DNA from: Corticibacter populi
Lineage (GTDB): Bacteria > Pseudomonadota > Gammaproteobacteria > Burkholderiales > Burkholderiaceae_C
Assembly (NCBI RefSeq): GCF_004217315.1
Contig: NZ_SGWR01000001.1
Location: 248,001 to 312,000, forward strand
Direction of reading: 5' to 3'
DNA: 64,000 nucleotides
In this document: in pieces, positions 37,630-55,217 of the stretch
How positions within the stretch are numbered: position 1 is the stretch's first letter
Layout of the letters: each line of letters starts with the position of its first letter
Made by a program: the position numbers and the translations under genes
Notes under the pieces: model-generated
Databases searched by the model: none
Told to the model about the DNA's origin: nothing
The model's input: the letters and a program-made list of their open reading frames with translations, nothing else

Positions 37630-37680
37630 GGCGGCGTGGCGTTGCAAAGGTGGCGGGTGTCCGCAGCCGGGCGGCCGGGT

Positions 37681-38940
37681 TCAGTGAAAGCGCGTGGCGC
37701 GGTAGGGAGCAAGGTCGATGGGGGCCTGCCGGGCCAGCACCTGGCTGGTGATGATCTGCGCCGTCATCGGTGCCTGTGTGAGGCCCAGATGCCCATGGCC
37801 GAACGCATACAGCACCCGTGGCGAGCGGCTGGAGCGGCCAATCACCGGCAGGGAGTCGGGCAGGCAAGGGCGGTTGCCCATCCAATCGCTGTGCTGCGTG
37901 AGGGCCGAGGCGCGCAGGCCCGGGAAGATCTGCTGGCTGTGACGCACCAGCGCGTCAATGCGGCGCTGCGTGGGCGGTGCATCCAGGCTGGCAAACTCCA
38001 CCGTGCCGGCCACGCGCAGGCCCATCTCCATCGGCACCGCGAAGCATTTGGCTTCTGCCGCCACCACCGGACGCTGCAGCGTCACGCCCGAATCTGGAAA
38101 CACCACGTGGTAGCCGCGCTGCGTTTGCAGCGGGATGTGGTCACCCATCTGCTGCGCCAGGCGGTGCGACCAGGCGCCGGCGGCAATGACCACCTGCTGC
38201 GCCGACCAAGGGCCCTGCGTGGTCTCCAGCAGCAGGCCGGCCCCGGGCTGCTCCGACAGCTGTGTCACCGCGGCTTGCAGCAGCGTGCCGCCGGCGGCCA
38301 CGAAGCGCTGGCGCACGGTGTGCAGCAGCCGCTGCGGGTTGACGACCATGCCTTCGCCCGGCACGAAGACCGCACGGGTGAATTGGGCCCCGACGGCGGG
38401 CTCCAGGTCGTGCAAGGCCGCACCGTCCAGTTCATGGATCTCGATGCCGCGTGCCCGGCGCAATGCCCAGCCGGCGGCGTCCCCGTCCCGCGCGGCCTGG
38501 CTGGTGTAGACCTGCAGCTGGCCGGTGAAGCGCAGCAGATCGTCAGCCTGCAGCTGCTGCGCCAGCGCACGGTAGAGATCGGTGGCCTGCTGGTTGATTG
38601 CGGCCAGCGCCAGCGAGGCCTGTTCCACCTGGCGGACATTGGAGGCCGCCAGAAACCGCAGCAGCCAGGGCGCTGCCCGCAGCGCATACGCGGGCTGGAT
38701 GCTCAGCGGGCCATCGCGGTCGAGCAGCATGCCGGGCACCTTCTTCCACATGCCGGGCATGCCCAGCGGCGCGACCGACGCCGAGCTGATGCTGCCGGCG
38801 TTGCCGGTGGAGCAGCACAGCGCGTCCGGATCGCGCTCGATCAGGGTGACTTCCAGCCCCTGCTGGCGCAGTTGCAGGGCGCACAGGGAGCCGATGATGC
38901 CTGCACCGATGACGATGCAGTGGGAATGCTGGGTTGGCAT
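37681..38940 (-). CDS. FAD-dependent D-amino-acid dehydrogenase (DadA family)
   Basis: A 419-residue membrane-associated flavoprotein of the DAO fold. The dinucleotide motif CIVIGAGIIGSLCALQL opens the protein, and LYAFGHGHLGLTQAPMTAQ closes it. It oxidises D-amino acids to 2-oxo acids, passing electrons to the quinone pool. It is divergent from a ThDP enzyme and next to HglS, which uses 2-oxoadipate, so D-2-aminoadipate or D-lysine-derived substrates are attractive but unproven. The ATTCC-N5-GGAAT site at 39048 lies in its promoter region. The alternative family member, a glycine or sarcosine oxidase, is less likely. Confidence 0.85.
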   Translation of the reverse strand: MPTQHSHCIVIGAGIIGSLCALQLRQQGLEVTLIERDPDALCCSTGNAGSISSASVAPLGMPGMWKKVPGMLLDRDGPLSIQPAYALRAAPWLLRFLAASNVRQVEQASLALAAINQQATDLYRALAQQLQADDLLRFTGQLQVYTSQAARDGDAAGWALRRARGIEIHELDGAALHDLEPAVGAQFTRAVFVPGEGMVVNPQRLLHTVRQRFVAAGGTLLQAAVTQLSEQPGAGLLLETTQGPWSAQQVVIAAGAWSHRLAQQMGDHIPLQTQRGYHVVFPDSGVTLQRPVVAAEAKCFAVPMEMGLRVAGTVEFASLDAPPTQRRIDALVRHSQQIFPGLRASALTQHSDWMGNRPCLPDSLPVIGRSSRSPRVLYAFGHGHLGLTQAPMTAQIITSQVLARQAPIDLAPYRATRFH

Positions 38941-39047
38941 GTTCGTGTTCGATTTCAAGGAGTGTGGAGCGGCAGCCCCGATGATAGAGCCGCCGGAGCG
39001 CCATTCGGCCGGTTCGGCTGGCAGCCAAGCTGTGCTGCTGCATACCC

Positions 39048-39062
39048 ATTCCGAAACGGAAT
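39048..39062. promoter_or_regulatory. Putative LysR-type binding site (ATTCC-N5-GGAAT)
   Basis: ATTCC-GAAAC-GGAAT is a perfect interrupted palindrome containing the T-N11-A core of LysR boxes. It lies in the 300-base divergent region between the D-amino-acid dehydrogenase and the ThDP enzyme, and its arms recur at 42128. Nothing else is seen from 38941 to 39240. Confidence 0.5.
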
Positions 39063-39240
39063 GATCTGCCACGCAACTATCGTTTGCCATGCGCAGGGGC
39101 CGCTTCTAGCATCGGCGTATTTTGTTCGGGATGCGCTGAAATCCATCGCATTCCCTCCAGGACACTCTTCCAGGGTGTCCTCCCTCCCCCCAGGGGCGTG
39201 GCATCGGCTGCCATTCCTGCGGGTTTCCAGTGAGCCCATC

Positions 39241-40920
39241 ATGACTTCATCCCCTCAGTCCCCATCCCCCCAAAGTGCCGGTCGCGTGCTGGTCCAGGCG
39301 CTTGCGTTGCATGGCGTCGACCGCGTTTTCTGCGTGCCCGGCGAGAGCTACCTGGAGGTGCTCGATGCCTTGTACGACGAGAAGGGCATCGACGTCGTCG
39401 TCACCAAGCATGAAGGCGCGGCGGCCAACATGGCCGAAGCGGACGGCAAGCTCACCGGCAGGCCCGGCATCTGCATGGTGACGCGCGGCCCGGGCGCCAC
39501 CCACGCCAGCATCGGCGTGCATGTGGCCCAGCAGGATTCGACGCCGATGCTGCTCTTCATCGGCCAGATCGCCCGCGACATGAAGGGGCGCGACGTGTTC
39601 CAGGAGATGGATTATCAGCAGGTCTTCGGCTCCATCGCCAAGCTGGTGATCGAGGTCGACGATGCCGATCGCATGGCCGAGTTGGTCGCGCGCGCCTTCC
39701 ATGTGGCGGTGTCGGGGCGGCCTGGTCCGGTCGTCATCGCGCTGCCCGAGGACATGCTGGAAGACCCCACCGGCACACCGGCCTGCCAGGCCACGGCCGT
39801 GGCGCCTGTGCAGGTGGGCACCGCTACGGCGCAGCGCATCGCCGCGCTGCTGCAGCAGGCTCGCAGGCCCCTGGTGGTGGCCGGTGGCGGCGGCTGGGAT
39901 GCCGTCTCGTGCCAGGCGCTGCAGGTGTTCGTGGAGTCATGGGGGCTGCCGGTGGCGTGTGCGTTCCGCCGCCAGGACGTGTTCGACAACGAACACACCC
40001 ATTACGTGGGGCACCTGAGCCTGGGCATGAGCGGCTCGGTGCGGGAGATGGTGCAGCAGGCGGATGTGATTCTCGCCATCGGCACGCGCCTGGGGGACAT
40101 CACCACCGGCGAGTATGCCTTGCTGCAGGTACCCCGGCCGGCCCAGACGCTGGTGCATTGCCACCCTTCGGCGGAGGAACTCGGGCGCGTGTACCAGGCA
40201 GACCTGGCGGTGGCGGCCCCGCCCCGTGCGCTGCTGGCCGCATTGAATGCGCTGGCCGCGCCAGACGCTCCGCGATGGAGCGACTGGCGCGCGCAGGGCC
40301 GCGCGGGTTTCGAGGCGTTCACGGGTCTGTCTTCGGCGCCTTTGGAGGCCGCCGGCGTGGACTTGCGTGAGGCCGTGCTGCACCTTTCCCGCGTTCTGCC
40401 AGAGGATGCGATCCTGACCAACGGCGCAGGCAATTACGCGGTCTGGCTGCACCGCTTCTACCGCTACCGCAGGCCGCGCACGGAGCTGGCGCCGACCTGC
40501 GGCGCGATGGGCTACGGATTGCCCGCTGCGGTGGCTGCGGCCTTGCGCCACAAGGGGCGGCCGGTCGTCTGCGTGGCCGGTGATGGCTGTTTCATGATGT
40601 ACCCGCAGGAGCTGGCCACTGCCGCCGAGTTCGGGGCCTCATTCATCGTGCTGCTGGTCAACAACGGGATGTACGGCACCATCCGCATGCACCAGTCCAA
40701 ACGCTATCCGGGGCGCGTCAGCGCCACCCGGCTGCAAGGCCCCGATTACTGCGCACTGGCGCGCTCGTTCGGCGCCCATGCCGAGCGCGTGACCGCCACC
40801 GCGGAGTTTGCGCCGGCGTTTGCCAGGGCCCAGGCCGCGGGCGGGCTGGCATTGCTGGAACTCGTCACCGATCCGCTGCAGATCACCCCGGATCTGCGCC
40901 TGCCGCAGGCCGACGCGTGA
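39241..40920 (+). CDS. ThDP-dependent 2-oxo-acid enzyme (acetolactate synthase-like)
   Basis: A 559-residue enzyme with the three-domain architecture of acetolactate synthase/benzoylformate decarboxylase. Glu58 in KHEGAAANMAEADG is the cofactor-activating glutamate; the ThDP motif runs from GDG at 447-449 to Asn474-Asn475 (LLVNNGMYG). Members with this local sequence are annotated broadly, and oxalyl-CoA, sulfoacetaldehyde and 2-oxo-acid decarboxylases all belong to the superfamily. Here, beside a D-amino-acid dehydrogenase and HglS, decarboxylation of a 2-oxo acid is the best inference. No small regulatory subunit is present. It converges on lysR with only 3 bases between the stops. Confidence 0.85.
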   Translation: MTSSPQSPSPQSAGRVLVQALALHGVDRVFCVPGESYLEVLDALYDEKGIDVVVTKHEGAAANMAEADGKLTGRPGICMVTRGPGATHASIGVHVAQQDSTPMLLFIGQIARDMKGRDVFQEMDYQQVFGSIAKLVIEVDDADRMAELVARAFHVAVSGRPGPVVIALPEDMLEDPTGTPACQATAVAPVQVGTATAQRIAALLQQARRPLVVAGGGGWDAVSCQALQVFVESWGLPVACAFRRQDVFDNEHTHYVGHLSLGMSGSVREMVQQADVILAIGTRLGDITTGEYALLQVPRPAQTLVHCHPSAEELGRVYQADLAVAAPPRALLAALNALAAPDAPRWSDWRAQGRAGFEAFTGLSSAPLEAAGVDLREAVLHLSRVLPEDAILTNGAGNYAVWLHRFYRYRRPRTELAPTCGAMGYGLPAAVAAALRHKGRPVVCVAGDGCFMMYPQELATAAEFGASFIVLLVNNGMYGTIRMHQSKRYPGRVSATRLQGPDYCALARSFGAHAERVTATAEFAPAFARAQAAGGLALLELVTDPLQITPDLRLPQADA

Positions 40921-40923
40921 GCG

Positions 40924-41856
40924 TCAGGGCGGTGCCGCGCCGGTGACTGCTTCGCCGCGCGTGAACGCGGCGGCCTTGTCCTGCAGCCAGGAACGAAAGG
41001 CCGCCAGCGGCGGATAGTTGGCGCGGCGCGTGGGCCACACCAGGTAGTAGGCGCCGATGCTTTGCACCGGCGGGAGTCCGGGCACGGCGCTGACCAGTTC
41101 GCCTTGCTGCAGCTCGCGCGCGATCAGAAAGCTCGGCAGCAGGGCCACGCCGATGCCGGCCACGGCGGCCTGGGCGGCGGTGGCGAACTGGTCGAAATGC
41201 ATGCCGGGCGCCTCCGGCGGCTCCATGCCCTGGGTACGAAACCAGGCTGGCCAGGCGCCGGATCTCGACGCCAGATGGATCAGCGACTGCCGGCTGAGAC
41301 CCGGCACGCCGTCAATGGGGTTTTGTGCCAGAAACTCGGGGCTGCAGGCAGGCACCACCGTTTCGTTCATCAGGAACGTGCTCTCGCTGCCCGGCCAGTG
41401 CGACTCACCGAAATGGATGGCCGCGTCCTGCGGGTCGAGCTGGAAGTCGAATGCGGCCAGCCGGGTCGAGATGTTCAGCGTCGTGCCCGGATGGCGCTGG
41501 AAGAAATCCGGCAGGCGCGGCGCTAGCCAGCGCGTGCCGAAGGTCGGGAGGATGGCCAGGTTCAGCACACCTCCTTGCGGATTGGCCTTGCAGGCGAGGG
41601 TGGCGCTGGTGATGCGGGTGAGCGCCTCGCGCACTTCCTGCGCGTAGGTTTGCCCCACGCCGCTGAGGCGGACGGTCTGGCGTTCGCGGATGAAAAGCGC
41701 GATCCCCAGGAATTCCTCGAGCGCACGTATCTGCCGGCTGACGGCACTCTGGGTGAGGTGCAATTCCGAGGCCGCCGCCGTGAAGCTCAGCAGGCGGGCG
41801 ACCGACTCGAAAGCGATCAGCAGCGATGTGGGGGGAAGATCTCTTCGCGCAAACAT
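40924..41856 (-). CDS. LysR-family regulator, GcvA-like
   Basis: A 310-residue LysR protein. The helix-turn-helix (LLIAFESVARLLSFTAAASELHLTQSAVSRQI, spread over residues 12-43) is followed by an inducer domain with TFGTRWLAPRLPDFFQRHPG. The GcvA/AmpR subgroup fits. It lies between the ThDP gene and hglS, divergent from hglS, and the two ATTCC-N5-GGAAT sites nearby are its likely targets. The ATG at 41856 gives the normal start; the upstream frame is open but atypical. Confidence 0.92.
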   Translation of the reverse strand: MFARRDLPPTSLLIAFESVARLLSFTAAASELHLTQSAVSRQIRALEEFLGIALFIRERQTVRLSGVGQTYAQEVREALTRITSATLACKANPQGGVLNLAILPTFGTRWLAPRLPDFFQRHPGTTLNISTRLAAFDFQLDPQDAAIHFGESHWPGSESTFLMNETVVPACSPEFLAQNPIDGVPGLSRQSLIHLASRSGAWPAWFRTQGMEPPEAPGMHFDQFATAAQAAVAGIGVALLPSFLIARELQQGELVSAVPGLPPVQSIGAYYLVWPTRRANYPPLAAFRSWLQDKAAAFTRGEAVTGAAPP

Positions 41857-42127
41857 GGTCTCGGGTACTTGGGCCAACCAACGGGCCTGTCGACGGATGG
41901 AGGGCGGGCGTGGATGTCGACGAGTATGCGCCATGCCAGGACCGGCCAAGCCCGGACCCAGGCATGGTCAAGCCCTCAGCAACATGCGCGCCACCATCGT
42001 AGCGTGGACATCATGCGATTCTGCCGGCAACTCGGCCTGCACGCCGCGGGGAATACCCATGCCGTGTCGCCGGCGGGATACCGCCTGCCAGTCTCGCCGT
42101 TCACCAGGGAAGGGTTAACGCGGATGT

Positions 42128-42142
42128 ATTCCATCCCGGAAT
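42128..42142. promoter_or_regulatory. Second ATTCC-N5-GGAAT site, upstream of hglS
   Basis: ATTCC-ATCCC-GGAAT repeats both arms of the site at 39048 with a different spacer. It lies 143 bases before the hglS start, in the region divergent from lysR. From 41857 to 42285 no gene or other structure stands out. Confidence 0.5.
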
Positions 42143-42285
42143 GAATGCGCACGGATTTATCGTTTGTGGCCCGGGGAGGTGTCCCCCTACCATCTGCGCA
42201 TCCCGTCACAGGCCGGCGTTTTCCACGGCGCGAGCCTGCATCCGGGCATTGAACGCCCGTCACCACTTCCATCACCACGACAGCC

Positions 42286-43740
42286 ATGGCAGACACCGTT
42301 GCCCCCGCCCAGACCGTGCCGTTTGTTTCCACCGATGAAATCCGTACACGCTTCTCGCGCGCCATGTCGGACATGTACCGCAACGAAGTTCCCCAGTACG
42401 GCACGTTGCTTGAGTTGGTTGCTCAGGTGAATGAGGCCTGCCTGCAGGCCCGGCCCGAACTGCGGCAAGCGATGCAGGGCAGCGGCGAGCTCGAACGCCT
42501 CAATCTCGAACGCCATGGTGCCATCCGCGTGGGCACCGCACAGGAGCTGGCGACCCTGCGCCGGCTGTTCGCGGTCATGGGCATGGAACCCGTCGGCTAT
42601 TACGACCTGTCGGTGGCCGGCGTGCCGGTGCATGCGACTGCCTTCAGGCCGGTCTCCGACGAGGCCCTGCACAGCAATCCGTTCCGCGTGTTCACCTCCT
42701 TGCTGCGGCTGGAGCTGATTGCGGATGCCCAGTTGCGCGAGCGGGCGCAGCAGATTCTCTCGCGGCGCAACATCTTCACCGCCCGGGCGCTGGAGCTGAT
42801 CGCTGGTTTCGAGGCCGCGGGTGGTCTCAGCGAGCGCCAGGCCGACGAGTTCGTGCGGGAGGCACTTGAGACCTTCCGCTGGCACAGCGAAGCCACCGTG
42901 GATTTCGAGACCTACACCAGCCTGCAGAATGCCCACCGCCTGATCGCCGATGTGGTGTGCTTCAAGGGGCCGCACATCAACCACCTGACGCCGCGCACCC
43001 TGGACATCGACGCCATCCAGGCGGCCATGCCGCAGCGCGGCATCAACGCCAAGGATGTGGTGGAGGGGCCGCCGCGCCGCGAATGCCCGATTCTGCTGCG
43101 CCAGACCAGCTTCAAGGCCTTGCAGGAGCCGGTCCACTTCAGCGACCACGTCGGCTCGCACACCGCGCGCTTTGGCGAGATCGAGCAGCGCGGCGTGGCC
43201 TTGACCCGCAAGGGCCGCCAGTTGTACGACGAGCTCTTGTCGCGGGTGCGCAGCATGCAGGGCGCGGGCAGCTCCGCCCCGGACTACGGCCAGCGTCTGG
43301 CACAGACCTTTGGCGAATTCCCCGATAGCCACGAACGCATGCGTGAGGAGGGGCTGGCGTTCTATCGCTACCGCCTGACCGACGCTGGCCGAGCGCATGC
43401 GCGCGAGGCCTTGCAGGCGCTGGATGGAGATCCTGCCCATGGTCTCCACGCCCTGGTGAACCGCGGCTGGGCCACGGCCCAGCCCATCACTTATGAGGAC
43501 TTCCTGCCTGTCAGCGCGGCCGGCATCTTCCAGTCGAACCTCGGCGGCCAGGAGCAGCGCCACTACCAGGCCCATGCGGCCAGGCAGACGTTCGAGCGCG
43601 ACCTCGGGGCCGCCACGCACGACGAACTGGCACTCTACGAACAGGCGCAACAACGCTCTGTGGAGGGCATGGTCCAGGCGCTGCAAGCCCAAGTGAAGGC
43701 TCAAGTGAAGGCTCAAGAGAAGAAGCCCCAGACGACATAG
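42286..43740 (+). CDS. hglS: 2-oxoadipate dioxygenase/decarboxylase (HglS, DUF1338)
   Basis: A 484-residue VOC-fold protein closely resembling HglS of Pseudomonas putida, which converts 2-oxoadipate and O2 to D-2-hydroxyglutarate and CO2 during D-lysine breakdown. Matching stretches include EVPQYGTLLELV, LERHGAIRVGTAQELATL, PFRVFTSLLRLELI, GPHINHLTPRTLDIDAIQ and YEDFLPVSAAGIFQSNLGG. His77, His233 and the glutamates of FGEIEQRG (298-300) fall where the iron ligands are reported. Identification rests on memory of the family. The next genes, a Bug protein and a D-2-hydroxyglutarate dehydrogenase, fit the product. The Lys/Gln-rich tail has repeated QVKA units. Confidence 0.93.
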   Translation: MADTVAPAQTVPFVSTDEIRTRFSRAMSDMYRNEVPQYGTLLELVAQVNEACLQARPELRQAMQGSGELERLNLERHGAIRVGTAQELATLRRLFAVMGMEPVGYYDLSVAGVPVHATAFRPVSDEALHSNPFRVFTSLLRLELIADAQLRERAQQILSRRNIFTARALELIAGFEAAGGLSERQADEFVREALETFRWHSEATVDFETYTSLQNAHRLIADVVCFKGPHINHLTPRTLDIDAIQAAMPQRGINAKDVVEGPPRRECPILLRQTSFKALQEPVHFSDHVGSHTARFGEIEQRGVALTRKGRQLYDELLSRVRSMQGAGSSAPDYGQRLAQTFGEFPDSHERMREEGLAFYRYRLTDAGRAHAREALQALDGDPAHGLHALVNRGWATAQPITYEDFLPVSAAGIFQSNLGGQEQRHYQAHAARQTFERDLGAATHDELALYEQAQQRSVEGMVQALQAQVKAQVKAQEKKPQTT

Positions 43741-43804
43741 GCAAGAACCGAGTCAAAGGCCTGACAGCAAGAACTTTCATCTCACAACGACACAGGAGAC
43801 ATCC

Positions 43805-44806
43805 ATGCCAGACCGCAAGATCACCCGACAAGCCTTTCTGAAATCCATCGCCGCGCTGGGCCTGACCGCTGCCTTGCAGCCCTTGTCCGCGCAGATCTCG
43901 AATGGCTACCCGAGCCGCGCCATCCGCCTGGTCGTGCCCTTTGCGCCCGGAGGCAACACCGACCTGATTGCGCGGATCCTGGGCCAGGCGCTGGCAGAGG
44001 AGCTGGGCCAGCCCGTGGTGGTGGAGAACATCTCCGGCGCCAATGGCTCGATCGGCACGAGCCGGGTGGCGGCGGCCGCCGCGGATGGCTACACCCTGCT
44101 TTTCGGAACGGCCGGTACGCAGGCCATCAACCAGAGTCTTTACAAGAACCTGAGCGAAAAGAACCTGGACGATTTCGAGTACCTGGGCCTGGTGACGTCG
44201 ATCCCCAACATGCTGGTCATCAACGAGGCCAGAACCCCGGTGGGTTCGGTGGCCGAGCTGCTGGCGCTGGCCCAATCCAGCCAGGCGGGCCTGAACTACG
44301 GATCGCCCGGCGCGGGCTCCACCATCCATCTCTCCGCGGAAATGTTTGGCACGGCCGCAGGGGTCAAGCTGCTGCATGTGCCTTACCGCGGCAGCGCGCC
44401 AGCCCTGGCCGACCTGATGGGTGGGCAGCTGGACTTCATCTTCGAGAACATCACGCCGGCCCTGCCATTCGTGACTTCGGGCAAGCTCAAGGCACTGGCC
44501 GTCGCTTCAGAGGAGCGTGTGCCGCTGCTGCCGGATGTGCCGACGATGAAGGAAAGCGGCTTCGACAACTTCGTCACCGGCACCTGGAACGGGGTGCTCG
44601 CGCCCAAGGGCACGCCGCAGGCCATCGTCGATCGTTTGAGCACAGCCATCCTCCAATGCGCGGCCAAGCCGGACTTCAAGGCCAAGGTGCAGGAAATGGG
44701 CGGGCAACCGCTGGAGATGGGGCCGGAGGAATTCAAGCGCTTCACGCGCGAGGAGTACCAGCGCTGGAATGCGGTGGTGGCCGCTGCCGGTGTGGAAAAG
44801 CTGTAA
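43805..44806 (+). CDS. Bug/TctC-type solute-binding protein
   Basis: A 333-residue periplasmic binding protein of the tripartite tricarboxylate family. The N-terminal signal (ITRQAFLKSIAALGLTAALQ, ending LSA) leads to YPSRAIRLVVPFAPGGNTD and QPVVVENISGANG. A GGAG ribosome site precedes the ATG. It sits between hglS and the D-2-hydroxyglutarate dehydrogenase, so it may capture a dicarboxylate feeding this pathway. A repeat element begins inside its stop codon. Confidence 0.92.
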   Translation: MPDRKITRQAFLKSIAALGLTAALQPLSAQISNGYPSRAIRLVVPFAPGGNTDLIARILGQALAEELGQPVVVENISGANGSIGTSRVAAAAADGYTLLFGTAGTQAINQSLYKNLSEKNLDDFEYLGLVTSIPNMLVINEARTPVGSVAELLALAQSSQAGLNYGSPGAGSTIHLSAEMFGTAAGVKLLHVPYRGSAPALADLMGGQLDFIFENITPALPFVTSGKLKALAVASEERVPLLPDVPTMKESGFDNFVTGTWNGVLAPKGTPQAIVDRLSTAILQCAAKPDFKAKVQEMGGQPLEMGPEEFKRFTREEYQRWNAVVAAAGVEKL

Positions 44807-45074
44807 GAACCTGTTCACGATCTTTTCATGGGCCACGTTGTTCCGACAGGCGATGCGATGCAAGGCGCAAACCGCAGTCGGGCCGGTGGCCCGGCGAGGA
44901 TTTGTAACATCGCAGCGCGCGCCTGCCGGGACAACCCGAAGGGCAGGAGGCCAAAAATGCATCGGGCGGCGTTGCCCGCCTTGCCCAGACGCCCAGTCTG
45001 GCCTGCGACGGGCGTCTTGCCCACTGCATTTTTGGCCTCCTGCGTGACCCATGAAAAGATCGTAAACAGGTTCT
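44806..45074. repeat. Dispersed intergenic repeat, copy 2 (MITE-like)
   Basis: A 269-base element with inverted ends: AGAACCTGTTCACGATCTTT at the left and AGAACCTGTTTACGATCTTT at the right (complement), 25 of 26 bases matching. The first A is the last base of the TAA stop codon of the Bug gene. A nested palindrome (AGGCCAAAAATGCA / TGCATTTTTGGCCT) fills the right half. It has no reading frame, in keeping with a non-autonomous mobile repeat. Confidence 0.88.
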
Positions 45075-45097
45075 AAGAACCTCTTGCCGGATTTGCC

Positions 45098-46528
45098 ATG
45101 CACGCTGATCTCATTGCAGCCTTGACCGCCATCGTGGGCGAAGGCCACGTCCTCACCGGCCATGCCACGGCCGAATATGCCACCGACTGGCGCCAGCGCC
45201 TGCAAGGCCAGGCCTTGTGCGTGGTACGCCCCGGCAGCACCGACGAGGTTGCGCAGGTGGTGCGCGCCTGTGCGGCGGCGGGCGTCTCCATCGTCCCACA
45301 AGGCGGCAATACCGGCCTGGTCGAAGGCTCGGTGCCGGACGGCTCAGGCCGGCAGGTGGTGCTGAGCCTGCGGCGCATGCATGCGGTGCGCGCCATCGAT
45401 CCAGACAACCTCACCATCACCGTCGAGGCGGGCTGCGTGCTGCAGAACGTGCAGGCGCTGGTGCAGGAGGCGGGCTTTCTGTTCCCGCTCAGCCTGGGGG
45501 CCGAAGGCAGTTGCACCCTGGGCGGCAACCTGGCGACGAACGCCGGCGGCACGCAGGTGGTGCGCTACGGCAATACGCGCGACCTTTGCCTCGGGCTGGA
45601 GGTGGTGACCGCCGACGGCCAGGTCTGGGATGGCCTGCTGGGCCTGCGCAAGGACAACACCGGCTACGACCTGCGCCACCTCTTCATCGGCAGCGAAGGC
45701 ACGCTGGGCGTGATCACGGCGGCGAGCATGCGCATGGTTCCGCAGCCTGCCGCGCAGCTGACGGCCTGGACCGCCGTGCCCTCGCTGGATGCGGCCAACG
45801 CCTTGCTGGCGCTGGCGCACCAGCACCTGGCCTCGGCGCTGACCGGCTTCGAACTGATGAACCAGCAGGCCCTGGCGCTGGTGGACCTGCACTACCCGCA
45901 CTTGCGGGTGCCGCTGTGGCAGCAGGGGCCATTCTGCGTGCTGCTCGAAGCCTCCGACAGCGAGTCGGAAGCCCATGCCCGCACGCTGTTCGAGCGCCTG
46001 CTGGAGCTGGCGATGGAGAAAGAACTGGTGCTGGATGCCGTCATTGCCGAGAGCGTCCAGCAGGCACATGACTTGTGGCACATCCGCGAGAGCATCACCC
46101 TGGCCCAGGCCGCGGAAGGCGTGAACGTCAAGCACGACATCTCGCTGCCCATCTCCCGCATCCCGGCCTTCGTGGCCGAGACCGATGCCGCGCTCCATGC
46201 GCTGCTGCCGGGCATCCGGCTGGTCAACTTCGGCCACCTGGGCGATGGCAATCTGCACTACAACGCCCAGGCGCCCGAAGACATGGAGGCGCGCGCGTTC
46301 GTCGCCGACCACGAGGAGTGCATCGGCGAGGTGGTCTACCGGAACGTGCACCGCTTTGGCGGCTCCATCTCCGCCGAGCACGGCATCGGCTCGCTCAAGC
46401 GCGAGAAGCTGCCCCACTACAAGTCACCGGTCGCCATGCAGCTGATGCAAAGAATCAAGTCCGCGCTCGACCCCCAGAACCTGCTCAACCCCGGGCGTGT
46501 GCTGGTAGGCCCGCGCACGGACCCCTGA
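45098..46528 (+). CDS. FAD-linked D-2-hydroxyglutarate dehydrogenase-like oxidoreductase
   Basis: A 476-residue flavoprotein of the FAD_binding_4/FAD-oxidase-C (D-lactate/D-2-hydroxyglutarate dehydrogenase) family. The FAD fold shows IVPQGGNTGLVEGS and GGNLATNAGGTQVVRYGN; the substrate domain has FGHLGDGNLHYN with its metal His and SAEHGIGSLKR. The family oxidises D-2-hydroxy acids, and D-2HGDH types give 2-oxoglutarate. Coming after hglS, oxidation of D-2-hydroxyglutarate is the natural role. D-lactate dehydrogenase is the alternative. It starts 24 bases after the repeat. Confidence 0.9.
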   Translation: MHADLIAALTAIVGEGHVLTGHATAEYATDWRQRLQGQALCVVRPGSTDEVAQVVRACAAAGVSIVPQGGNTGLVEGSVPDGSGRQVVLSLRRMHAVRAIDPDNLTITVEAGCVLQNVQALVQEAGFLFPLSLGAEGSCTLGGNLATNAGGTQVVRYGNTRDLCLGLEVVTADGQVWDGLLGLRKDNTGYDLRHLFIGSEGTLGVITAASMRMVPQPAAQLTAWTAVPSLDAANALLALAHQHLASALTGFELMNQQALALVDLHYPHLRVPLWQQGPFCVLLEASDSESEAHARTLFERLLELAMEKELVLDAVIAESVQQAHDLWHIRESITLAQAAEGVNVKHDISLPISRIPAFVAETDAALHALLPGIRLVNFGHLGDGNLHYNAQAPEDMEARAFVADHEECIGEVVYRNVHRFGGSISAEHGIGSLKREKLPHYKSPVAMQLMQRIKSALDPQNLLNPGRVLVGPRTDP

Positions 46529-46615
46529 GCGCTGCCGGCGGGACGCGATAGCGGTGCATGGAATGGCCCATCCCGCCCTCTTGAACGGAATATCCCTCAA
46601 CCCCTGGAATCGAAT

Positions 46616-48199
46616 ATGACCCATAGAACAGGCGCGGAGCAGCTGGTTCACACGCTGCTGGACAACAAGGTGGACGTGTGTTTTGCCAATCCCGGCACGT
46701 CGGAAATGCACTTCGTCGCGGCGCTGGACAAGGTGGGCGCCATGCGCTGCGTGCTGGGCCTGCACGAGACCGTCGTGACGGGCGCAGCCGATGGCTACTA
46801 CCGGATGGCCGACAAGCCGGCCGCCACGCTGCTGCATCTCGGTCCGGGCCTGGCCAACGGCCTCTCCAATCTCCACAATGCCAAGAAGGCCCGCTCCGGG
46901 ATCGTCAACATCGTCGGCGACCATTCCGCCGAGCACCTGAAGCTGGATGCGCCGCTCACATCGGACATCAAGGCCCTGGCCGGCGTGGTCTCCCAATGGG
47001 TGCACACCAGCCAGTCTGCCAGCGACATTGCCACCGATGGGGCGCAGGCGGTGCGGCAGGCCTGCGGCCGGCCGGGGGCCATCGCCACGCTGATCCTTCC
47101 GGCCGATGTGGCCTGGTCCGAACTGGCGGCGGAGGGCTCCGCCGCCGTCGCGCCACAGGCGCCGAAGGCGGCAGCCGAGCCGGCAGGGGCGGCCGGTGCC
47201 CATGACATGGCCCGCATTGTCCAGGCCTTGCGGGAAGATCCCGAACACACCCTGATCCTTTGCGGAGACCGCGCGACGCGTGCAGATTGCACCAGCCTCG
47301 TCGGCCGCATCGTCGCCGCCACCGGCTGCGCCGCCCGCGCCGAGTTCTATGGCGCGCGGCTGGAGCGCGGCGCCGGCAGGGTGGCGCTGCTGCGCCTGCC
47401 ATACGCGGTGGCGCCTTCGCTGGCCATCCTCGCCAAGTTCAGCACGGTGGTGCTGGTGGGGGCCAAGGAGCCGGTGGCCTTCTTCGCCTATCCCGACAAG
47501 CCCGGCCGCCTGACGGCCCCGGGGTGCCGGTTCCTGACGCTCTCGACACCCGAGGACTGCCCGCGCGACGCCTTGCGCGAGCTGTGCGGTGCCTTGGGTG
47601 CGCAGTCATTGCCGGCCGCACTGCTGGCGCGCCACGCCACCGACGCGCCCGCGCAGGGCCCGCTCGATTCCGAATCCATCGGGCGGGTGCTTGGCGCCAC
47701 CTTGCCGGACAACGCCATCGTGGTCGATGAAGCCATTTCGACCGGCAGAGGCTTCGATGCGCTGACCCTGCATGCCGCGCCGCATGACTGGCTGACCGGC
47801 TGTGGCGGCTCCATCGGCTTTGCCCTGCCGGCGGCGGTGGGGGCGGCCATCGCCGCACCGGGGCGCAGAGTCGTTGCGCTGGAGGGCGACGGCAGCGGCA
47901 TGTACACCTTGCAGTCGCTGTGGTCGATGGCGCGGGAGCAACTGGACGTGACCGTGCTGATCTTCGCCAACCGGACCTACGGCATCCTGCATGGTGAACT
48001 GGCGGCCGTGGGCGCCGGCGCACCCGGCGCGCGCGCCCAGGACATGTTGAACCTCGACAGGCCGCAGATCGACTGGTCGGGGCTTGCCGAGTCGATGGGG
48101 GTGCCCGCGATCAAGGTGGCCGACATCGAATCCCTGAGCAAGGCCCTGCAGGCGTCGTACCGCCGCCATGGACCCATGTTGCTCGAGGTGCTCCTTTAG
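46616..48199 (+). CDS. ThDP-dependent acetolactate synthase-like enzyme
   Basis: A 527-residue ThDP enzyme of the MdlC/IlvB-like subgroup often labelled acetolactate synthase large subunit. Glu51 in LGLHETVVTGAADG is the activating glutamate; the ThDP motif starts GDG at 424-426 and runs through FANRTYGI. It is shorter than IlvB and lacks a small-subunit partner. The target is probably a 2-oxo acid decarboxylation, as in benzoylformate decarboxylase. With the aldehyde dehydrogenase downstream it could make an acid from a 2-oxo acid. An element copy begins in its stop codon. Confidence 0.85.
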   Translation: MTHRTGAEQLVHTLLDNKVDVCFANPGTSEMHFVAALDKVGAMRCVLGLHETVVTGAADGYYRMADKPAATLLHLGPGLANGLSNLHNAKKARSGIVNIVGDHSAEHLKLDAPLTSDIKALAGVVSQWVHTSQSASDIATDGAQAVRQACGRPGAIATLILPADVAWSELAAEGSAAVAPQAPKAAAEPAGAAGAHDMARIVQALREDPEHTLILCGDRATRADCTSLVGRIVAATGCAARAEFYGARLERGAGRVALLRLPYAVAPSLAILAKFSTVVLVGAKEPVAFFAYPDKPGRLTAPGCRFLTLSTPEDCPRDALRELCGALGAQSLPAALLARHATDAPAQGPLDSESIGRVLGATLPDNAIVVDEAISTGRGFDALTLHAAPHDWLTGCGGSIGFALPAAVGAAIAAPGRRVVALEGDGSGMYTLQSLWSMAREQLDVTVLIFANRTYGILHGELAAVGAGAPGARAQDMLNLDRPQIDWSGLAESMGVPAIKVADIESLSKALQASYRRHGPMLLEVLL

Positions 48200-48383
48200 A
48201 ACCTGTTCAAAGTCTTGGCATGAGAGCCGTTGTGGTTGAAAGGTTGTGGCTGCAAGGCGCAAAACGCAGCCGGGTTGGTGGCCGGGCGAGGCGTTTGCAA
48301 CGCCGCAGACGCAGCATTTCAGCCGCAACCCACAGGGCATGGCGTTGCCATGCGGATCCATGCAGAGACTTTGAACAGGTTCT
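48198..48383. repeat. Dispersed intergenic repeat, copy 3
   Basis: A 186-base element with inverted ends (AGAACCTGTTCAAAGTCT at both, allowing complement). The first AG is the end of the TAG stop codon of the ThDP gene. Its centre, GCAAGGCGCAAAACGCAGCC and following, matches the left half of copy 2. Immediately after it, AGAGCCTGCTTGCGATCTTT (48385-48404) resembles a lone end of copy 2. Bases 48384-48472 hold only this fragment. Confidence 0.82.
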
Positions 48384-48472
48384 GAGAGCCTGCTTGCGAT
48401 CTTTTCGCGGGCCCGAACGCAGATTTTCCCCACCACACCAGAAGAACCATCGCATCAAGGAGACAAGCCATC

Positions 48473-49453
48473 ATGCAACGTGAAACGAATCGTCCTGCCA
48501 GGCTGGCCAAAGCCAGCATCCTGTCCGCCGCCGCGGCACTGGCCATGCCGCTGTGGGCGGCCAACGCCTTCCCGCAATCGCCCATCGTGCTGGTGGTGGG
48601 ATTCGGCGCCGGCGGCAGCACCGACGTGTGCAACCGCGCGCTGGCGGTGGATGTCTCGCGGCAACTGGGGCAGCCGCTGGTGGTGGAGAACCGGCCCGGT
48701 GCCGGCTCCTCGCTGTCCGTGACCTACACCGCGCGCCAGAAGCCCGATGGATACACGATAGCCGCGCTCTCCACCGGCAGCCTGCTCAATCAGGTGCTGA
48801 CACCGAGCGTCAAATACGACGTCACCCGGGATCTCACCCAGATCGCGATGGTCGCGCAGTACCAGGTGGGGGTGTTGGTAAAGGCCGATTCCCCCTACCA
48901 GTCCATGGCCGAACTCATCGAGGCCAGCAAGACCGCCAAGCAGCCATTGGCCTATGGCACGGCGGGGCTTGGCACGCCGATGCACCTGGCTTCCGAGCGG
49001 CTGACGCAACTGGCCGGCACGGAGTGGGTGCATGTGCCGTACAAGAGCGGCCCGGAGAACATCACCGCGCTGCTGCGAGGTGATGTGGACTTCATGGTGC
49101 AAACAGCGGAGTGGGTACCCTATGTCCGCAACGGCAGCATGCGCTTGCTGGCCGCCTACACGCAGGAGCGGATCAAGGGGTTCGAGTCCGCCCCCACCGT
49201 CCGGGAACTGGGCTACGACGTGGTGGCACCGAGCTTCATGGGGATTTCCGGCCCGGCTGGAATGGATACTGCGGTTGTGCAAACATTGCAGGAAGCATTC
49301 CGCAACGCCGTCAACGCCAAGGAATTCGTCAGTTGCAGCGACCAGTTTGGCCTGCGGCCGGATTTCAAGGATGCCGCAGCCTTCAGCGCGCATGTCCAGG
49401 ATACCTTGACGACCTGGACGCCGCTGATCAAGCAGCTGGCGCCGCAGAACTGA
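48473..49453 (+). CDS. Bug/TctC-type solute-binding protein
   Basis: A 326-residue binding protein of the tripartite tricarboxylate family, with a signal peptide ([19 protein letters not shown]) and the mature start [16 protein letters not shown] and [19 protein letters not shown] site precedes the ATG. It is the third such protein in the window and the second in the 2-oxo-acid cluster. Its ligand cannot be read from the sequence. No TctA or TctB lies nearby. Confidence 0.92.
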
Positions 49454-49611
49454 GCCTGGTGGAGCCGGGACGGCGGCCACCGGCGCGCGGGGTGCCCGCC
49501 GCCTGCACCGGGCCGCCGGTGCGGGTGTCTCCATCTCCAGGCCATTCCCTTCGTGACAACGGTGCGCGGTCCATTGGCCCGCATCCGATCCTTTTTCAGA
49601 CCAGGAAACCC

Positions 49612-51057
49612 ATGAGCTCTTTTTCATACCCCAGCACCCAGCTTCTGATCGGCAACCAGTGGGTGGACAGCCAGGACGGCCGGCGCATCGATGTGCGCAA
49701 TCCCGCGACGGGGCAGGTCATCGGCCAGGTTGCCCATGCCGGCATTGCCGACCTCGACAAGGCCCTGGCAGCGGCGCGGCAGGGCTTTGAGGTCTGGCGG
49801 CACACCTCGGCGCATGAGCGTGCGGCCCTGATGCGCCGCGCGGCGGGCTTGCTGCGCGAGCGCGCCGACGCGATCGCCCGCAGCCTGACGCTGGAGCAGG
49901 GCAAGCCGCTGCGGGAGGCGCAGGCGGAAGTGGCCGCTGCCTCCGGCATCATCGAATGGTTTGCGGATGAAGGCCTGCGCGTCTATGGCCGCATCGTGCC
50001 GGCGCGCAATGTCGCAGCGCTGCAGCTGGTCATCAAGGAGCCGGTGGGGCCGGTGGCGGCGTTCACGCCATGGAACTTCCCGGTGAACCAGGTGGTGCGC
50101 AAGCTCGGCGCGGCGCTGGCCACGGGCTGCTCGTTCCTGTTGAAGGCGCCGGAGGAAACGCCCGCTTCACCGGCTGCATTGCTGCGCGTCTTCGTCGATG
50201 CCGGGCTGCCGCCTGGCGTGCTGGGGCTGGTGTATGGCGATCCGGCGGAAATATCCTCCTACCTGATCGCGCACCCCGTTATCCGCAAGGTCACGTTCAC
50301 CGGATCGACGGTCGTGGGCAAGCAGCTGGCCGCGCTGGCCGGCGCCCACATGAAGAGGGTGACCATGGAGCTGGGCGGCCATGCCCCGGTCATCGTCGCG
50401 GAAGACGCCGACCTGGAACTGGCGGTGCGCACGGCCGGCGCCGCCAAGTTCCGCAACGCGGGCCAGGTGTGCATCTCGCCCACGCGCTTTCTGGTGCACA
50501 ACAGCCTCAAGCAGGCATTCGCGCAGGCGCTGGCAAGGCACGCCGAGGGCCTGCAGCTGGGCGATGGCCTGGTCGATGGCACCACGCTGGGGCCGCTGGC
50601 CAACCCGCGCCGTGTCGTGGCGATGGAGTCCATCGTCGCGGACGCGAAAGCCAAGGGCGCGCAGATCGTGACCGGGGGCGAACGTGCCGGTGGCACGGGC
50701 AATTTCTTTGCGCCCACCGTCATCTCCGATGCGCCGCTGGACAGCATGCTCTTCAATGACGAGCCGTTCGGCCCGGTGGCCGGCATTCGCGGCTTCGATT
50801 CGCTCGAAGAGGCGATCGCCGAGGCCAACCGTCTGCCCTACGGGCTGGCGGCGTACGCGTTCACGAAATCCTTCAGGAACGTGCAACTCCTCAGCGACCG
50901 GCTGGAAGTCGGCATGGTCTGGATCAACCAGGCCGCGACGCCCTCGGCGGAACTGCCTTTCGGCGGCGTCAAGGATTCGGGCTACGGCACCGAGGGTGGC
51001 CCTGAAGCCCTGGAGGCCTACCTCAATACCAAGGCGGTGTCTGCCGTGGGGGGTTGA
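49612..51057 (+). CDS. NAD(P)-dependent aldehyde dehydrogenase (succinate-semialdehyde type)
   Basis: A 481-residue aldehyde dehydrogenase. Glu253 (MELGGHAPV) and the catalytic Cys287 ([13 protein letters not shown]) are intact, as is [11 protein letters not shown] for the cofactor. The closest subgroup by eye is succinate/glutarate-semialdehyde dehydrogenase (GabD-like). With the ThDP enzyme upstream, oxidation of a 4- or 5-carbon semialdehyde to succinate or glutarate is a reasonable inference. It starts 158 bases after the Bug gene with a GGAAA site. Confidence 0.93.
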
Positions 51058-51099
51058 GATCGGGAGGAGTCGTGGCATCGGTCGGCAAAGCCGAATGCA

Positions 51100-52554
51100 C
51101 TACTGGCCGGCCCGGCCAGTAGTGGGCGCGGCAGGCTCAGCGGACAGCGGCGGGGGAAGGAGAGGCGCTGGCACGGACGCCAGGGCCCTGGCCAGCACCT
51201 CGAACAAGCGCCCGTCCAGTGATTGCGAGACATTGAAGCGCAGGTACCCGCTGGCACTGAGCGATTGGCTGAAGGCATTGCCGGGCGCGAGCACCACCCC
51301 CTCCTGCAGGCAGGTGCGTGCCAGTGCCGCGGCATCCACGCCATCGGGCAGGCGGCACCAGAGGAACATGCCGGCACCGGGCCTCAGCCACGGCACGATG
51401 CCCAGTGCGCCCAGGTGCTGGATGGTTTGTTCCATCGCGGTGGCCAGGCGTGCGCGCACGCCCTCCATGTGACGGCGGTAGCCGCTGCCGGTCAGCGCCG
51501 CCAGCAGAATGGCCGCGGGCAGTTGGCCGCCTCCGAAGTGGGTGGCGATCTTCAGGTCGACCAGGGCGTCGATCCAGTCCGCGCGGGCGGCGATATGGCC
51601 GCAGCGGAGCGAGGCCGAAAGGCTCTTGGAGAAGCTGCCGATATGAATCACCCGCGAGAGACCGTCGAAGGCGGCCAGGCGCGGCGCCGGGCTGGTTTCG
51701 TAGTCGGCATAGAGATCGTCTTCGACGATCACCAGTTCGGAGGCGTCGGCCAGCTTGAGCAGCCGGTGCGCCGTCACCGATGACAGCGTGGCGCCGGTCG
51801 GGTTGTGGATGCCCGCATTGGTGATGTACAGGCGTGGTGAATGCGTGCGCACCGCCGCCTCGAAGGCCGCGAGGTCCGGCCCGCCGGGCGTGAACGGCAC
51901 GCCCACGACCTGCACGCGATGGGCGCGCAGCAGGGCGTGAAAATTGAAGTAGCAGGGATCGTCCACCAGCACGGTGTCTCCCGGCTGCAGCAGAAAGCGG
52001 CAGATCAGGTCGATCGCATGCGTGCTGGACTCCGTCAGCATGATCTGCTCGGGCTGCGCCTCCACATCCATCGCCGCCAGGCGGCGGGCCAGCCATTGCC
52101 GAAGCGCAGGCAAGCCCCGCGCCGTCGCGTAATCGGCCAGCAGCGCCTCGCCGGCCCGCGCGGTGCCACGCAGCGCACGCCGCATGCCCTCTGCATACGT
52201 CCACGATGCGGGCAGCCAGCCGCAACCGGGCTTGAGCAAATCCTTGCCGGTCTCCAGTGCCTGGCGCGATACCCAGAGCGGATCGACTTCGCGGTCGAGT
52301 CGCGGGCCGATTTCCGCCAGGGCCAGCGGCGCCGCCGGGCCGGCAACATAGAACCCCGCACCACGCCGGGCGTGGATAACCTCCTCGGCCACCAGCCGCT
52401 CGTAGGCCTCCACCACGGTGGAGACAGACAGCCCCATCGTCCTGGCCTGCGCGCGCACCGACGGCAGGCGGGCGCCGGGCAGGTAGCTGCGCGAGGCGAT
52501 CTTCGCGCGTACCGCGGCCATGACGGCCTCGATACGGGTGTGGCTTGTTGGCAT
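51100..52554 (-). CDS. MocR-type GntR/aminotransferase regulator
   Basis: A 484-residue fusion. The GntR winged helix (RSYLPGARLPSVRAQARTMG, VSTVVEAYERLVAEEVI) is followed by a fold-type I aminotransferase domain with ITNAGIHNPTGATLS and the PLP lysine in SFSKSLSASLRCG. MocR proteins use PLP-amino-acid adducts as effectors. It is divergent from an EamA transporter, the classic MocR-EamA arrangement, so that gene is its probable target. The ATG at 52554 fits the family start; an upstream frame is not supported. Confidence 0.93.
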   Translation of the reverse strand: MPTSHTRIEAVMAAVRAKIASRSYLPGARLPSVRAQARTMGLSVSTVVEAYERLVAEEVIHARRGAGFYVAGPAAPLALAEIGPRLDREVDPLWVSRQALETGKDLLKPGCGWLPASWTYAEGMRRALRGTARAGEALLADYATARGLPALRQWLARRLAAMDVEAQPEQIMLTESSTHAIDLICRFLLQPGDTVLVDDPCYFNFHALLRAHRVQVVGVPFTPGGPDLAAFEAAVRTHSPRLYITNAGIHNPTGATLSSVTAHRLLKLADASELVIVEDDLYADYETSPAPRLAAFDGLSRVIHIGSFSKSLSASLRCGHIAARADWIDALVDLKIATHFGGGQLPAAILLAALTGSGYRRHMEGVRARLATAMEQTIQHLGALGIVPWLRPGAGMFLWCRLPDGVDAAALARTCLQEGVVLAPGNAFSQSLSASGYLRFNVSQSLDGRLFEVLARALASVPAPLLPPPLSAEPAAPTTGRAGQ

Positions 52555-52712
52555 GGGCTGGTCCTTCCATCCGAAGCAGGGAGAGCAACTGTGGCGTGAT
52601 CGACTGTGTGGTGATCGATACCAATACAGTTCATGAAAATTGTATGGCATTGTCCATGGCCGGGCGGGCGCCTCCGTGGTGAAGTGTGGGGCCACCTCCA
52701 ACGGAACGAAAA

Positions 52713-53576
52713 ATGGACCAGAAAACCAGCGGCTGGATCAGCGGCTTCATCGGCGTATTGATATTCGCGGGCTCGTTGCCCGCCACGCGAGCGGCGGTGA
52801 TGGATTTCGAGCCGGTATTCCTCACCTGCGCCCGCGCCAGCATCGCCGGCCTGCTGGCGCTGGCCTTGCTGCTGGCGTTGCGCCAGCGTCGTCCCGCCCC
52901 GGCCGACGTGGTGCCGCTGGCGGTGGTTGCCCTGGGTGTGGTGCTGGGCTTTCCGCTGCTGACCGCGCTGGCGCTGCGGCACGTCTCGTCCGCGCATTCC
53001 ATCGTCTTTCTCGGGCTGCTGCCCGTCTGCACGGCCTTGTTCGGCGTGCTGCGCGGCGGCGAGCGGCCCCACGCGGCCTTCTGGCTGTTTTCGGTGCTGG
53101 GCAGCGCCTGCGTGGTCGGCTATGCCGCAAAGGACGGCATCGATGCCTCGCCGGTTGGCGACCTGCTGATGCTGGCGGCCATTCTTGTTTGCGGCCTGGG
53201 CTATGCCGAAGGCGCCCGCCTGTCGCGCCGGCTGGGCGGCTGGCAGGTCATCAGCTGGGCGCTGGTGCTGACCCTGCCCATCATGCTGCCGGCCGCCGTG
53301 TTCACCATGCCGGCATCGTTTGCTGCAGTCGGCACGCCGGCATGGATTGGGCTGGCCTACGTCTCGCTGTTCAGCATGCTGATCGGCTTCATGTTCTGGT
53401 ACCGCGGGCTGGCGCTGGGCGGCATCGCCGCAGTGGGACAGCTGCAATTACTGCAGCCATTTTTTGCCCTGGCGCTGGCGGCATCACTGCTGCACGAAGC
53501 GGTGAGCGGAGCCATGCTGCTGGCGACTCTCGGCGCGGTACTTTGCGTGGCTGGCGCACGGCGGTTTGCTGTGTGA
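52713..53576 (+). CDS. EamA-family (DMT) exporter
   Basis: A 287-residue membrane protein with ten hydrophobic segments in two EamA repeats. LPATRAAVMDFEPVFLTCAR near the start and QLQLLQPFFALALAA near the end are repeat signatures. Such transporters export amino acids or related metabolites. It is divergent from the MocR gene with 158 bases between them. It ends the high-GC block; an AT-richer island follows. Confidence 0.9.
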   Translation: MDQKTSGWISGFIGVLIFAGSLPATRAAVMDFEPVFLTCARASIAGLLALALLLALRQRRPAPADVVPLAVVALGVVLGFPLLTALALRHVSSAHSIVFLGLLPVCTALFGVLRGGERPHAAFWLFSVLGSACVVGYAAKDGIDASPVGDLLMLAAILVCGLGYAEGARLSRRLGGWQVISWALVLTLPIMLPAAVFTMPASFAAVGTPAWIGLAYVSLFSMLIGFMFWYRGLALGGIAAVGQLQLLQPFFALALAASLLHEAVSGAMLLATLGAVLCVAGARRFAV

Positions 53577-53629
53577 GCGAAAGTTGACCAGAAGAGCAAT
53601 GGAGACGACCTCGCAGTGCGTTGATCGAG

Positions 53630-55189: not shown

Positions 55190-55217
55190 GCGCTTTTGCT
55201 TTCTAAGAGTCTGACTG

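Follow-up and report, generated by a model that had tools for sequence, protein, structure and literature searches.

HglS, a 2-oxoadipate dioxygenase/decarboxylase, has so far been described as a step in lysine breakdown. For the enzyme of Pseudomonas putida, roles of the 2-oxoadipate-binding residues have been reported, and of the seven oxo acids in the reported assay, 2-oxoadipate was the only one on which the enzyme was active (PMC7286885). Single-domain D-2-hydroxyglutarate dehydrogenases (D2HGDH) dependent on flavin adenine dinucleotide (FAD) are likewise represented among described proteins, namely by the human enzyme (structure 6lpn) and by bacterial ones (PMC9504171). Here, we analyzed a 64,000-nucleotide stretch of Corticibacter populi (contig NZ_SGWR01000001.1 of assembly GCF_004217315.1, positions 248,001 to 312,000; hereafter the window), in which relatives of both enzymes are encoded in one cluster (37681-51057) together with two periplasmic receptors (Bug1 and Bug2), two thiamine diphosphate (ThDP)-dependent enzymes (T199 and T586), an aldehyde dehydrogenase (ALDH), a DadA-like dehydrogenase and a LysR-type regulator. 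We propose, with a probability of roughly 0.6, that the cluster holds a regulon under LysR control that serves a six-carbon 2-oxo diacid, in which a predicted HglS/D2HGDH route is accompanied by the co-regulated T199. The operator-promoter shared by T199 and hglS is the strongest single result of the analysis.

Matches to profile models were scored in bits against the NCBIfam cut-offs, with Pfam domains alongside. All genes named in the initial annotation of this DNA were confirmed inside the cluster, and three further genes, namely those of LysR and of the two TctC/Bug receptors, were found there. From left to right, the order is dadA-like (minus strand), T199 (plus), lysR (minus), hglS-bug1-d2hg-T586-bug2-aldh (plus) and mocR-like (minus). 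The features of the proposed regulon are as follows:

39048..39062, no strand: LysR-type palindrome, candidate operator, 178 bp before the T199 start, ranked first by the matrix described below
39084..39112, plus strand: sigma-70-like T199 promoter with a spacer of 17, 21 nt after the palindrome
39241..40920, plus strand: T199, ThDP-dependent enzyme of the PRK08199 subfamily (NF006052, 802 bits, cut-off 539)
40924..41949, minus strand: GcvA-like LysR regulator (PF00126/PF03466), its true start probably further in
42128..42142, no strand: LysR-type palindrome in the lysR-hglS gap, candidate hglS operator, ranked second by the matrix
42286..43740, plus strand: HglS, 2-oxoadipate dioxygenase/decarboxylase (NF049974, 731 bits, cut-off 550; PF07063)
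43805..44806, plus strand: Bug1, TctC-type periplasmic receptor (PF03401)
45098..46528, plus strand: D2HGDH, FAD-dependent D-2-hydroxyglutarate dehydrogenase-like (PF02913 and PF01565; 3pm9, E 6e-133; human 6lpn, E 1e-95)

The T199 start at 39241 was judged from the sequence; the gene takes up the last part of a longer open frame (36079-40920), which adds only open reading upstream of it.

The same palindrome was found in the lysR-hglS gap and in the dadA-T199 gap, and the 64 kb contained exactly these two matches where 0.06 would be expected. Among the 26 other HglS loci used for the neighborhood counts, 12 have a strict match before hglS or the bug1 operon. A -35-like hexamer, in most cases inside a "gtttg" or "gattg" stretch, comes 20-22 nt after the palindrome; another 17-18 nt on there is a -10-like hexamer, weak in some loci. 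Palindrome and promoter, with distances of 21 and 17 nt, precede T199 in the window and in two other genomes of the genus (L102 of G002 and L148 of G006), i.e., in all three genomes that have the lysR-T199 pair (3/3); the same three are those of the genus in which the hglS-bug1-d2hg operon was found. In positions 37500-51400, the T199 promoter is the sole promoter-like site (1.0 expected by chance). In G006, lysR-T199 is on another contig than the hglS operon, each with the site, and no lysR relative was found within 20 kb around hglS in that genome.

We then trained a 43-nt matrix on 11 hglS/bug1 promoters of other genomes, without any site from the window or from T199 and without L122, a near-duplicate of L121. 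When 1,691,002 bases of the own genome were scanned on both strands, the highest score fell on the T199 site (34.9 bits) and the next on the hglS site (29.2 bits), followed by a site of 14.6 bits. Given these first two ranks, T199 would belong with HglS, and it is very probably a member of the HglS regulon here and in the two related species. The GcvA-like LysR, of which relatives with at least 54% identity occur in 18 of the 26 other HglS loci, is probably the activator of both hglS and T199. Furthermore, T199 and HglS are co-present or co-absent in nine of ten genomes of the genus, the exception (G008) being 77% complete. Two ThDP enzymes had initially been put forward as an alternative branch; that such an enzyme belongs with HglS is supported for T199, by the shared operator-promoter, but not for T586. 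Another palindrome of 21 bp at 39160 was considered as an operator and dropped, since its motif with two mismatches allowed was as common as chance.

The core of the proposed regulon closely resembles described enzymes. HglS of the window is similar to that of P. putida (6w1g, E 2e-166) and keeps the metal triad, the substrate arginine and the loop residues; indeed, the triad and the equivalents of Arg74, Val402 and Ser403 are present in the window and in all 26 rows aligned with it. The three metal residues were placed in the alignment by motif. The D2HGDH aligns with the human enzyme (6lpn) over nearly its whole length, including the Arg, Thr, Lys, His, His, Glu and His positions that serve substrate and metal in that enzyme. 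A D2HGDH of the YdiJ type, which has about 1018 residues and an iron-sulfur (Fe-S) part, was ruled out, as the protein has 476 residues and scores 113 bits against a cut-off of 1350 (NF049975). Whereas it resembles the ordinary single-domain enzymes near full length, the d2hg gene of the window is an accessory copy linked to hglS; another D2HGDH copy of 59-63% identity occurs in nine of ten genomes of the genus, including the own genome. In contrast to P. putida HglS, hglS here shares its strand with neighboring genes for a Bug receptor and for a single-domain D2HGDH, in a genome with no AmaA or AmaB match at the thresholds given below.

HglS is uncommon: in our survey of 399 sampled genomes of the family and 399 of the order (E up to 1e-60), it was found in 22 and 8, respectively. 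Fragmentary matches in G004 and G009 (two in all, E near 1e-3) were not taken as HglS. Near hglS, bug1 and d2hg that are both at least 60% identical to those of the window recur in 7 of the 26 other loci (L102, L103, L125-L129), in two gene orders, so that the grouping is more than chance; L123 and L135 have a d2hg relative of 34-35% beside hglS. The HglS-linked bug1 genes form their own clade (support 100/100; 8 rows within a 25-row tree). The HglS-linked d2hg genes, with one from G031, form another apart from the other copies, with a support of 93/87, just under the 95 mark. The HglS tree itself, from which L137 was left out for its split gene, leaves the kinship of the two bug1-d2hg groups unsettled. 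In L137 (G547, 9466-10843), HglS lies in two frames, by a frameshift or an assembly error. The hglS-bug1-d2hg operon thus looks like a dedicated route from 2-oxoadipate over D-2-hydroxyglutarate to 2-oxoglutarate with its own uptake receptor, and here the initial proposal for HglS and D2HGDH agrees with both residues and synteny.

We know of no function for the PRK08199 subfamily, a group of acetolactate synthase-like enzymes for which T199 scores above the subfamily cut-off. All 18 rows compared have the catalytic Glu58 and also agree in several Arg/His positions, from which the substrate cannot be read. T199 scores below the cut-offs of the models listed for acetolactate synthases proper, and a plain acetolactate synthase was rejected on this ground (TIGR00118, 341 vs. 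538 bits; the best 25 of 54 models were compared). In the neighborhoods of 17 other T199 loci, with 80 T586 loci and 9 ALDH loci for comparison, a 2-hydroxyacid dehydrogenase of one of three unrelated families (flavin mononucleotide (FMN)-dependent, Ldh_2 and FAD) lies within 6 kb of T199 in 9 of 17, a count biased by the origin of three of the four query proteins in T199 loci; the same queries matched in 0/80 T586 loci and 1/9 ALDH loci. With d2hg alone as the query, the counts were 4/17 for T199 and 0/80 for T586. On annotated plasmids, relatives of T199 stand beside alpha-hydroxy acid oxidases (three records), beside an aldehyde dehydrogenase using nicotinamide adenine dinucleotide phosphate (NADP), and beside an FAD-binding oxidoreductase together with an FAD/Fe-S protein. 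An enzyme acting on 2-oxo acids made by neighboring hydroxyacid-oxidizing enzymes fits best for T199. Near hglS, T199 of at least 60% identity was found in 2 of the 26 other loci (L102 and L140).

Two T199 loci may be described on their own. In L149 (G031, 5614-11044), a D2HGDH of the HglS-linked clade, LysR, an FMN-dependent dehydrogenase and T199 are adjacent, i.e., D- and L-type hydroxyacid dehydrogenases lie next to a ThDP enzyme, and no HglS was found in the stretch. In L141 (AP028202.1, 795000-832000), a Paraburkholderia replicon, relatives of T199 and T586 are 17 kb apart, and T199 stands immediately before an NADP-type aldehyde dehydrogenase gene.

Together with the query bias and the unsettled tree noted above, several observations weigh against the regulon that we propose. 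The matrix scan extended to some 40% of the own genome. When only the 17-nt palindrome was scored, T199 kept the top rank (25.6 bits), and the hglS site (21.7 bits) was nearly equaled by one in L212 (21.0 bits). Strict operator matches also occur outside the window, namely 3 in 1,627,002 bases of the own genome and 4 in 1.44 Mb of T586 loci. The Bug gene behind the L212 site has its own LysR upstream, and the site may be that of a related regulator or chance. No strict match was found in 15 of the 17 other T199 loci, L140 coming close in the palindrome (23.1 bits) with the promoter part absent, and the regulatory tie is hence seen in a single genus (the window, G002 and G006). In G005 and G007, furthermore, the neighbors of T199 are a gene for threonine dehydratase and one of the RarA type; threonine dehydratase also yields a 2-oxo acid, yet it would equally suit an acetolactate synthase-like role of T199. 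As for the L212 locus itself (G000 contig C1, 13401-16618), the strict match lies about 60 bp before the Bug gene, which is followed by an AstE/AspA-type hydrolase gene.

The presence of HglS, a LysR regulator and 2-oxoadipate chemistry would also be in common with ordinary lysine catabolism of the P. putida kind. In the own genome (99.7% complete), nonetheless, searches with the AmaA and AmaB proteins of G002 found nothing for AmaB up to E 1e-90 or for AmaA up to E 1e-30, other lysine routes not having been sought. The classic HglS neighbors in L106 and L107, respectively, are an AmaA-like gene at 444 and 433 bits against a cut-off of 600, AmaB at 830 and 834 bits against one of 730, and a MocR/aminotransferase-like gene; these do not stand beside HglS here. 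We consider lysine catabolism of this kind, already disfavored by these findings, very unlikely. The same-genus G002 has such a classic LysR-HglS-AmaA-like-AmaB cluster (L107) plus a copy of the window type (L102), while G006, which has the hglS-bug1-d2hg operon, gave no AmaB match and AmaA relatives of 50 and 37% identity. The pipecolate route of lysine is thus probably not the feed of the core route in the own genome, and because of the lack of AmaA and AmaB matches the oxo acid would come from elsewhere, i.e., by uptake through Bug1, from DadA or by another lysine route.

Bug1 is about equally near to BugD, to 2dvz, to the terephthalate receptors and to AdpC; for this reason, its ligand cannot be inferred, and an assignment from the nearest solved structures was abandoned. 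AdpC is reported as a member of the TctC family that binds C6-C9 diacids (PMC5812351). Bug1 has this family membership in common with AdpC and the other Bug receptors but is no nearer to AdpC than to the others. The other candidate source lies across the T199 operator:

37681..38940, minus strand: DadA-like FAD amino-acid dehydrogenase (PF01266, 219.7 bits)

Its frame is open to 39090, and the start at 38940 is a probable one, judged from the sequence; the best NCBIfam match is DadA, with 192 bits against a cut-off of 383, and the protein is hence called only DadA-like. Supply of the oxo acid by a D-amino-acid dehydrogenase had been suggested initially. The gene does flank the T199 palindrome, on its far side, but the matrix gave no top-ten promoter in its direction, and no DadA relative was found near hglS in the 26 other loci. 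Such a supply is possible, and conversion of a D-amino acid, e.g., D-2-aminoadipate, to the oxo acid would be speculative.

Taken together, the proposed regulon might operate as follows. Outside the membrane, Bug1 would bind the acid or a near precursor of it. HglS, as strongly suggested by its sequence, would use Fe(II) and O2 to turn 2-oxoadipate into D-2-hydroxyglutarate, and D2HGDH, an FAD enzyme, with equally strong indications, would oxidize the latter to 2-oxoglutarate. T199 has a LysR operator-promoter of this kind as well, and its substrate is most likely a 2-oxo acid of the pathway; it may decarboxylate either 2-oxoadipate, as a parallel branch, or 2-oxoglutarate, as a continuation, to a semialdehyde, and the ALDH of the downstream T586-Bug2-ALDH run could oxidize this semialdehyde. 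The feed would probably not be the pipecolate route, DadA acting on a D-amino acid being a speculative source. The downstream run consists of the following:

46616..48199, plus strand: T586, ThDP-dependent enzyme of the PRK07586 subfamily (NF005760/PRK07586, 695 bits, cut-off 363)
48473..49453, plus strand: Bug2, divergent TctC-type receptor (PF03401, 212.5 bits)
49612..51057, plus strand: ALDH of the alpha-ketoglutarate/succinate-semialdehyde dehydrogenase type (PF00171, Aldedh; 5x5t, E 2e-239), start judged from the sequence

T586 and T199 belong to different subfamilies (PRK07586 and PRK08199). T586 starts 87 bp past d2hg on the same strand and is similar to benzoylformate decarboxylases, its nearest solved relatives (4mpp, E 7e-44), in sequence and in the active-site His and Glu, while it is far below the cut-off of the benzoylformate decarboxylase model NF005485 (190 vs. 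493 bits). Glu51 and His74 are present in 81 of 81 rows; by motif, His74 presumably corresponds to His70 of benzoylformate decarboxylase, and the invariant Glu461, likewise by motif, presumably stands where that enzyme has a pocket residue. A plain acetolactate synthase was ruled out for T586 as well, under the model cut-offs compared.

It was proposed at the outset that T586, like T199, could form with ALDH a branch beside HglS. Near hglS, nonetheless, a T586 relative (46% identity) was found in only one of the 26 other loci (L133, 5.8 kb off) and an ALDH of at least 60% in none. Conversely, no HglS or D2HGDH match was found in the stretches, many of them short contigs, around the best 80 of 337 T586 relatives, ALDH matches of 27-50% identity occurring in 9 of the 80, and T586 as a fixed partner of HglS was dropped. 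We therefore see T586-bug2-aldh as an attachment to hglS in the own genome only, with a putative functional link to HglS. The cluster could be two or three unrelated units that merely abut: the hglS-bug1-d2hg operon, the dadA/T199 pair, and T586-bug2-aldh for other compounds. The counts just given, the absence of DadA relatives near hglS, the varied neighbors of T586 and ALDH relatives, the lack of an operator upstream of T586, bug2 or aldh, and a similar Bug-ALDH end on another cluster of the own genome with an IlvD-type dehydratase all speak for this. For T199, it is contradicted by the shared operator-promoter; as an account of the whole cluster we find it somewhat unlikely, and for T586-bug2-aldh it is still quite possible. 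The closest T586 relative found (71%, L002) has genes for a porin and for Bug receptors nearby, as well as a BKACE gene, and Bug2 is on a long branch outside the Bug1 clade. The contigs of three T586 relatives (L069, L002 and L009) are named Bacillus subtilis SK6B4, Pantoea sp. 18069 and Bordetella parapertussis metagenome-assembled genome, and these names look doubtful.

When 13 residues of the alpha-ketoglutarate semialdehyde dehydrogenase of Azospirillum brasilense (5x5t) that belong to the pocket, bind the cofactor or are catalytic were compared, all were found again in the ALDH; its gene setting is a different one. It is below the equivalog cut-offs (NF042993, 343 vs. 770 bits; NF052305, 304 vs. 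750 bits) and below that of the succinate-semialdehyde dehydrogenase model TIGR01780 (478 vs. 646 bits). The A. brasilense enzyme is reported to use both ketoglutarate and succinate semialdehydes (PMC5385487). The aldehyde had at first been suggested to come from 2-oxoadipate. By its residues, the ALDH would fit the conversion of 2-oxoglutarate to succinic semialdehyde and succinate at least as well as that of 2-oxoadipate to glutarate; the aldehyde may hence come from 2-oxoglutarate, which would make the scheme linear rather than branched. The linear scheme would run from 2-oxoadipate over D-2-hydroxyglutarate and 2-oxoglutarate to succinic semialdehyde (by T199 or T586) and succinate (by ALDH), as a dedicated detour round 2-oxoglutarate dehydrogenase. 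It would be consistent with the reported use of succinic semialdehyde by this type of ALDH, with ThDP-dependent 2-oxoglutarate decarboxylases described from cyanobacteria (PMC10418658), and with the setting of T199 in G031, where, away from HglS, an FMN-dependent dehydrogenase and a member of the HglS-linked D2HGDH clade accompany it. Its advantage over the tricarboxylic acid cycle is not evident, however, and we regard it as doubtful. A cluster of the own genome (L161; G000 contig C3, 10000-29500) has at 4138-11970 a Bug gene, an HpcH/HpaI aldolase, a D2HGDH-like gene, an IlvD-type dehydratase, another Bug gene and an ALDH 76% identical to that of the window. It looks like sugar-acid breakdown, a hint that this type of ALDH serves ketoglutarate semialdehyde from sugar acids.

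A true branch at 2-oxoadipate would instead place the O2-requiring HglS/D2HGDH route beside T199 or T586 with ALDH, which would lead without O2 to glutarate semialdehyde and glutarate. As 2-oxoglutarate needs no dedicated exit, the pathway-specific acid would be the most sensible substrate for a co-regulated decarboxylase, and the operator-promoter common to T199 and hglS also agrees with a branch. The 13 ALDH residues point to the ketoglutarate/succinate-semialdehyde enzyme, however, and G002 and G006 have 20-kb stretches with T199 or the hglS operon but without T586 or such an ALDH; we hold the branch to be unlikely. Two parallel routes from 2-oxoadipate are possible, whereas the specific form in which one LysR switch serves both an O2-consuming HglS path and an O2-free one from T199 over glutarate semialdehyde to ALDH appears quite unlikely. 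If it were true, an imported C6 oxo diacid could be used whether or not oxygen is plentiful. A few enzyme assays could answer the question of the branch.

In the open PubMed Central literature, covered by titles and the beginnings of abstracts and with subscription journals outside its scope, no HglS cluster with a Bug receptor, D2HGDH or ThDP enzyme was found. The kind of pathway is known; we are aware of no earlier example of the gene combination or of the control that T199 shares with hglS. HglS here appears to be separate from the pipecolate route and linked instead with an uptake receptor, with a dedicated D2HGDH and with a thiamine enzyme under common regulation. From the proposed regulon, a route by which bacteria take up 2-oxoadipate or one of its precursors would be predicted, and the large PRK08199 subfamily would gain a functional handle. 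T199, if it is a 2-oxoadipate decarboxylase, would be to our knowledge the first dedicated stand-alone one.

The remaining features in and beside the cluster are the following:

44807..45073, no strand: dispersed palindromic element resembling a miniature inverted-repeat transposable element (MITE), incidental, with 31-bp terminal inverted repeats
48199..48382, no strand: second dispersed palindromic element, incidental, with 23-bp terminal inverted repeats
51100..52701, minus strand: MocR-like regulator (GntR and aminotransferase; PF00392 and PF00155), flanking

A third MITE-like element lies at 15070-15218, the terminal inverted repeats of the three being 23-31 bp, and those in the cluster begin directly past the stop codons of bug1 and T586. 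We considered that d2hg-T586 had moved as a unit between the elements; this was dropped, since the element is scattered genome-wide (17 match bins in 12 of 22 pieces, 439 kb of the own genome outside the window) and G002, which like G006 holds related stretches, also has one between bug1 and d2hg. A terminator scan found 4 against 6.2 expected in shuffled sequence, i.e., below expectation. Beyond the cluster, the G+C content dips to about 58% at 52001-60000 compared with about 67% on either side, and this possibly acquired island encodes a tetratricopeptide repeat protein (55395-57206) and a weak nucleotidyltransferase-like open reading frame.

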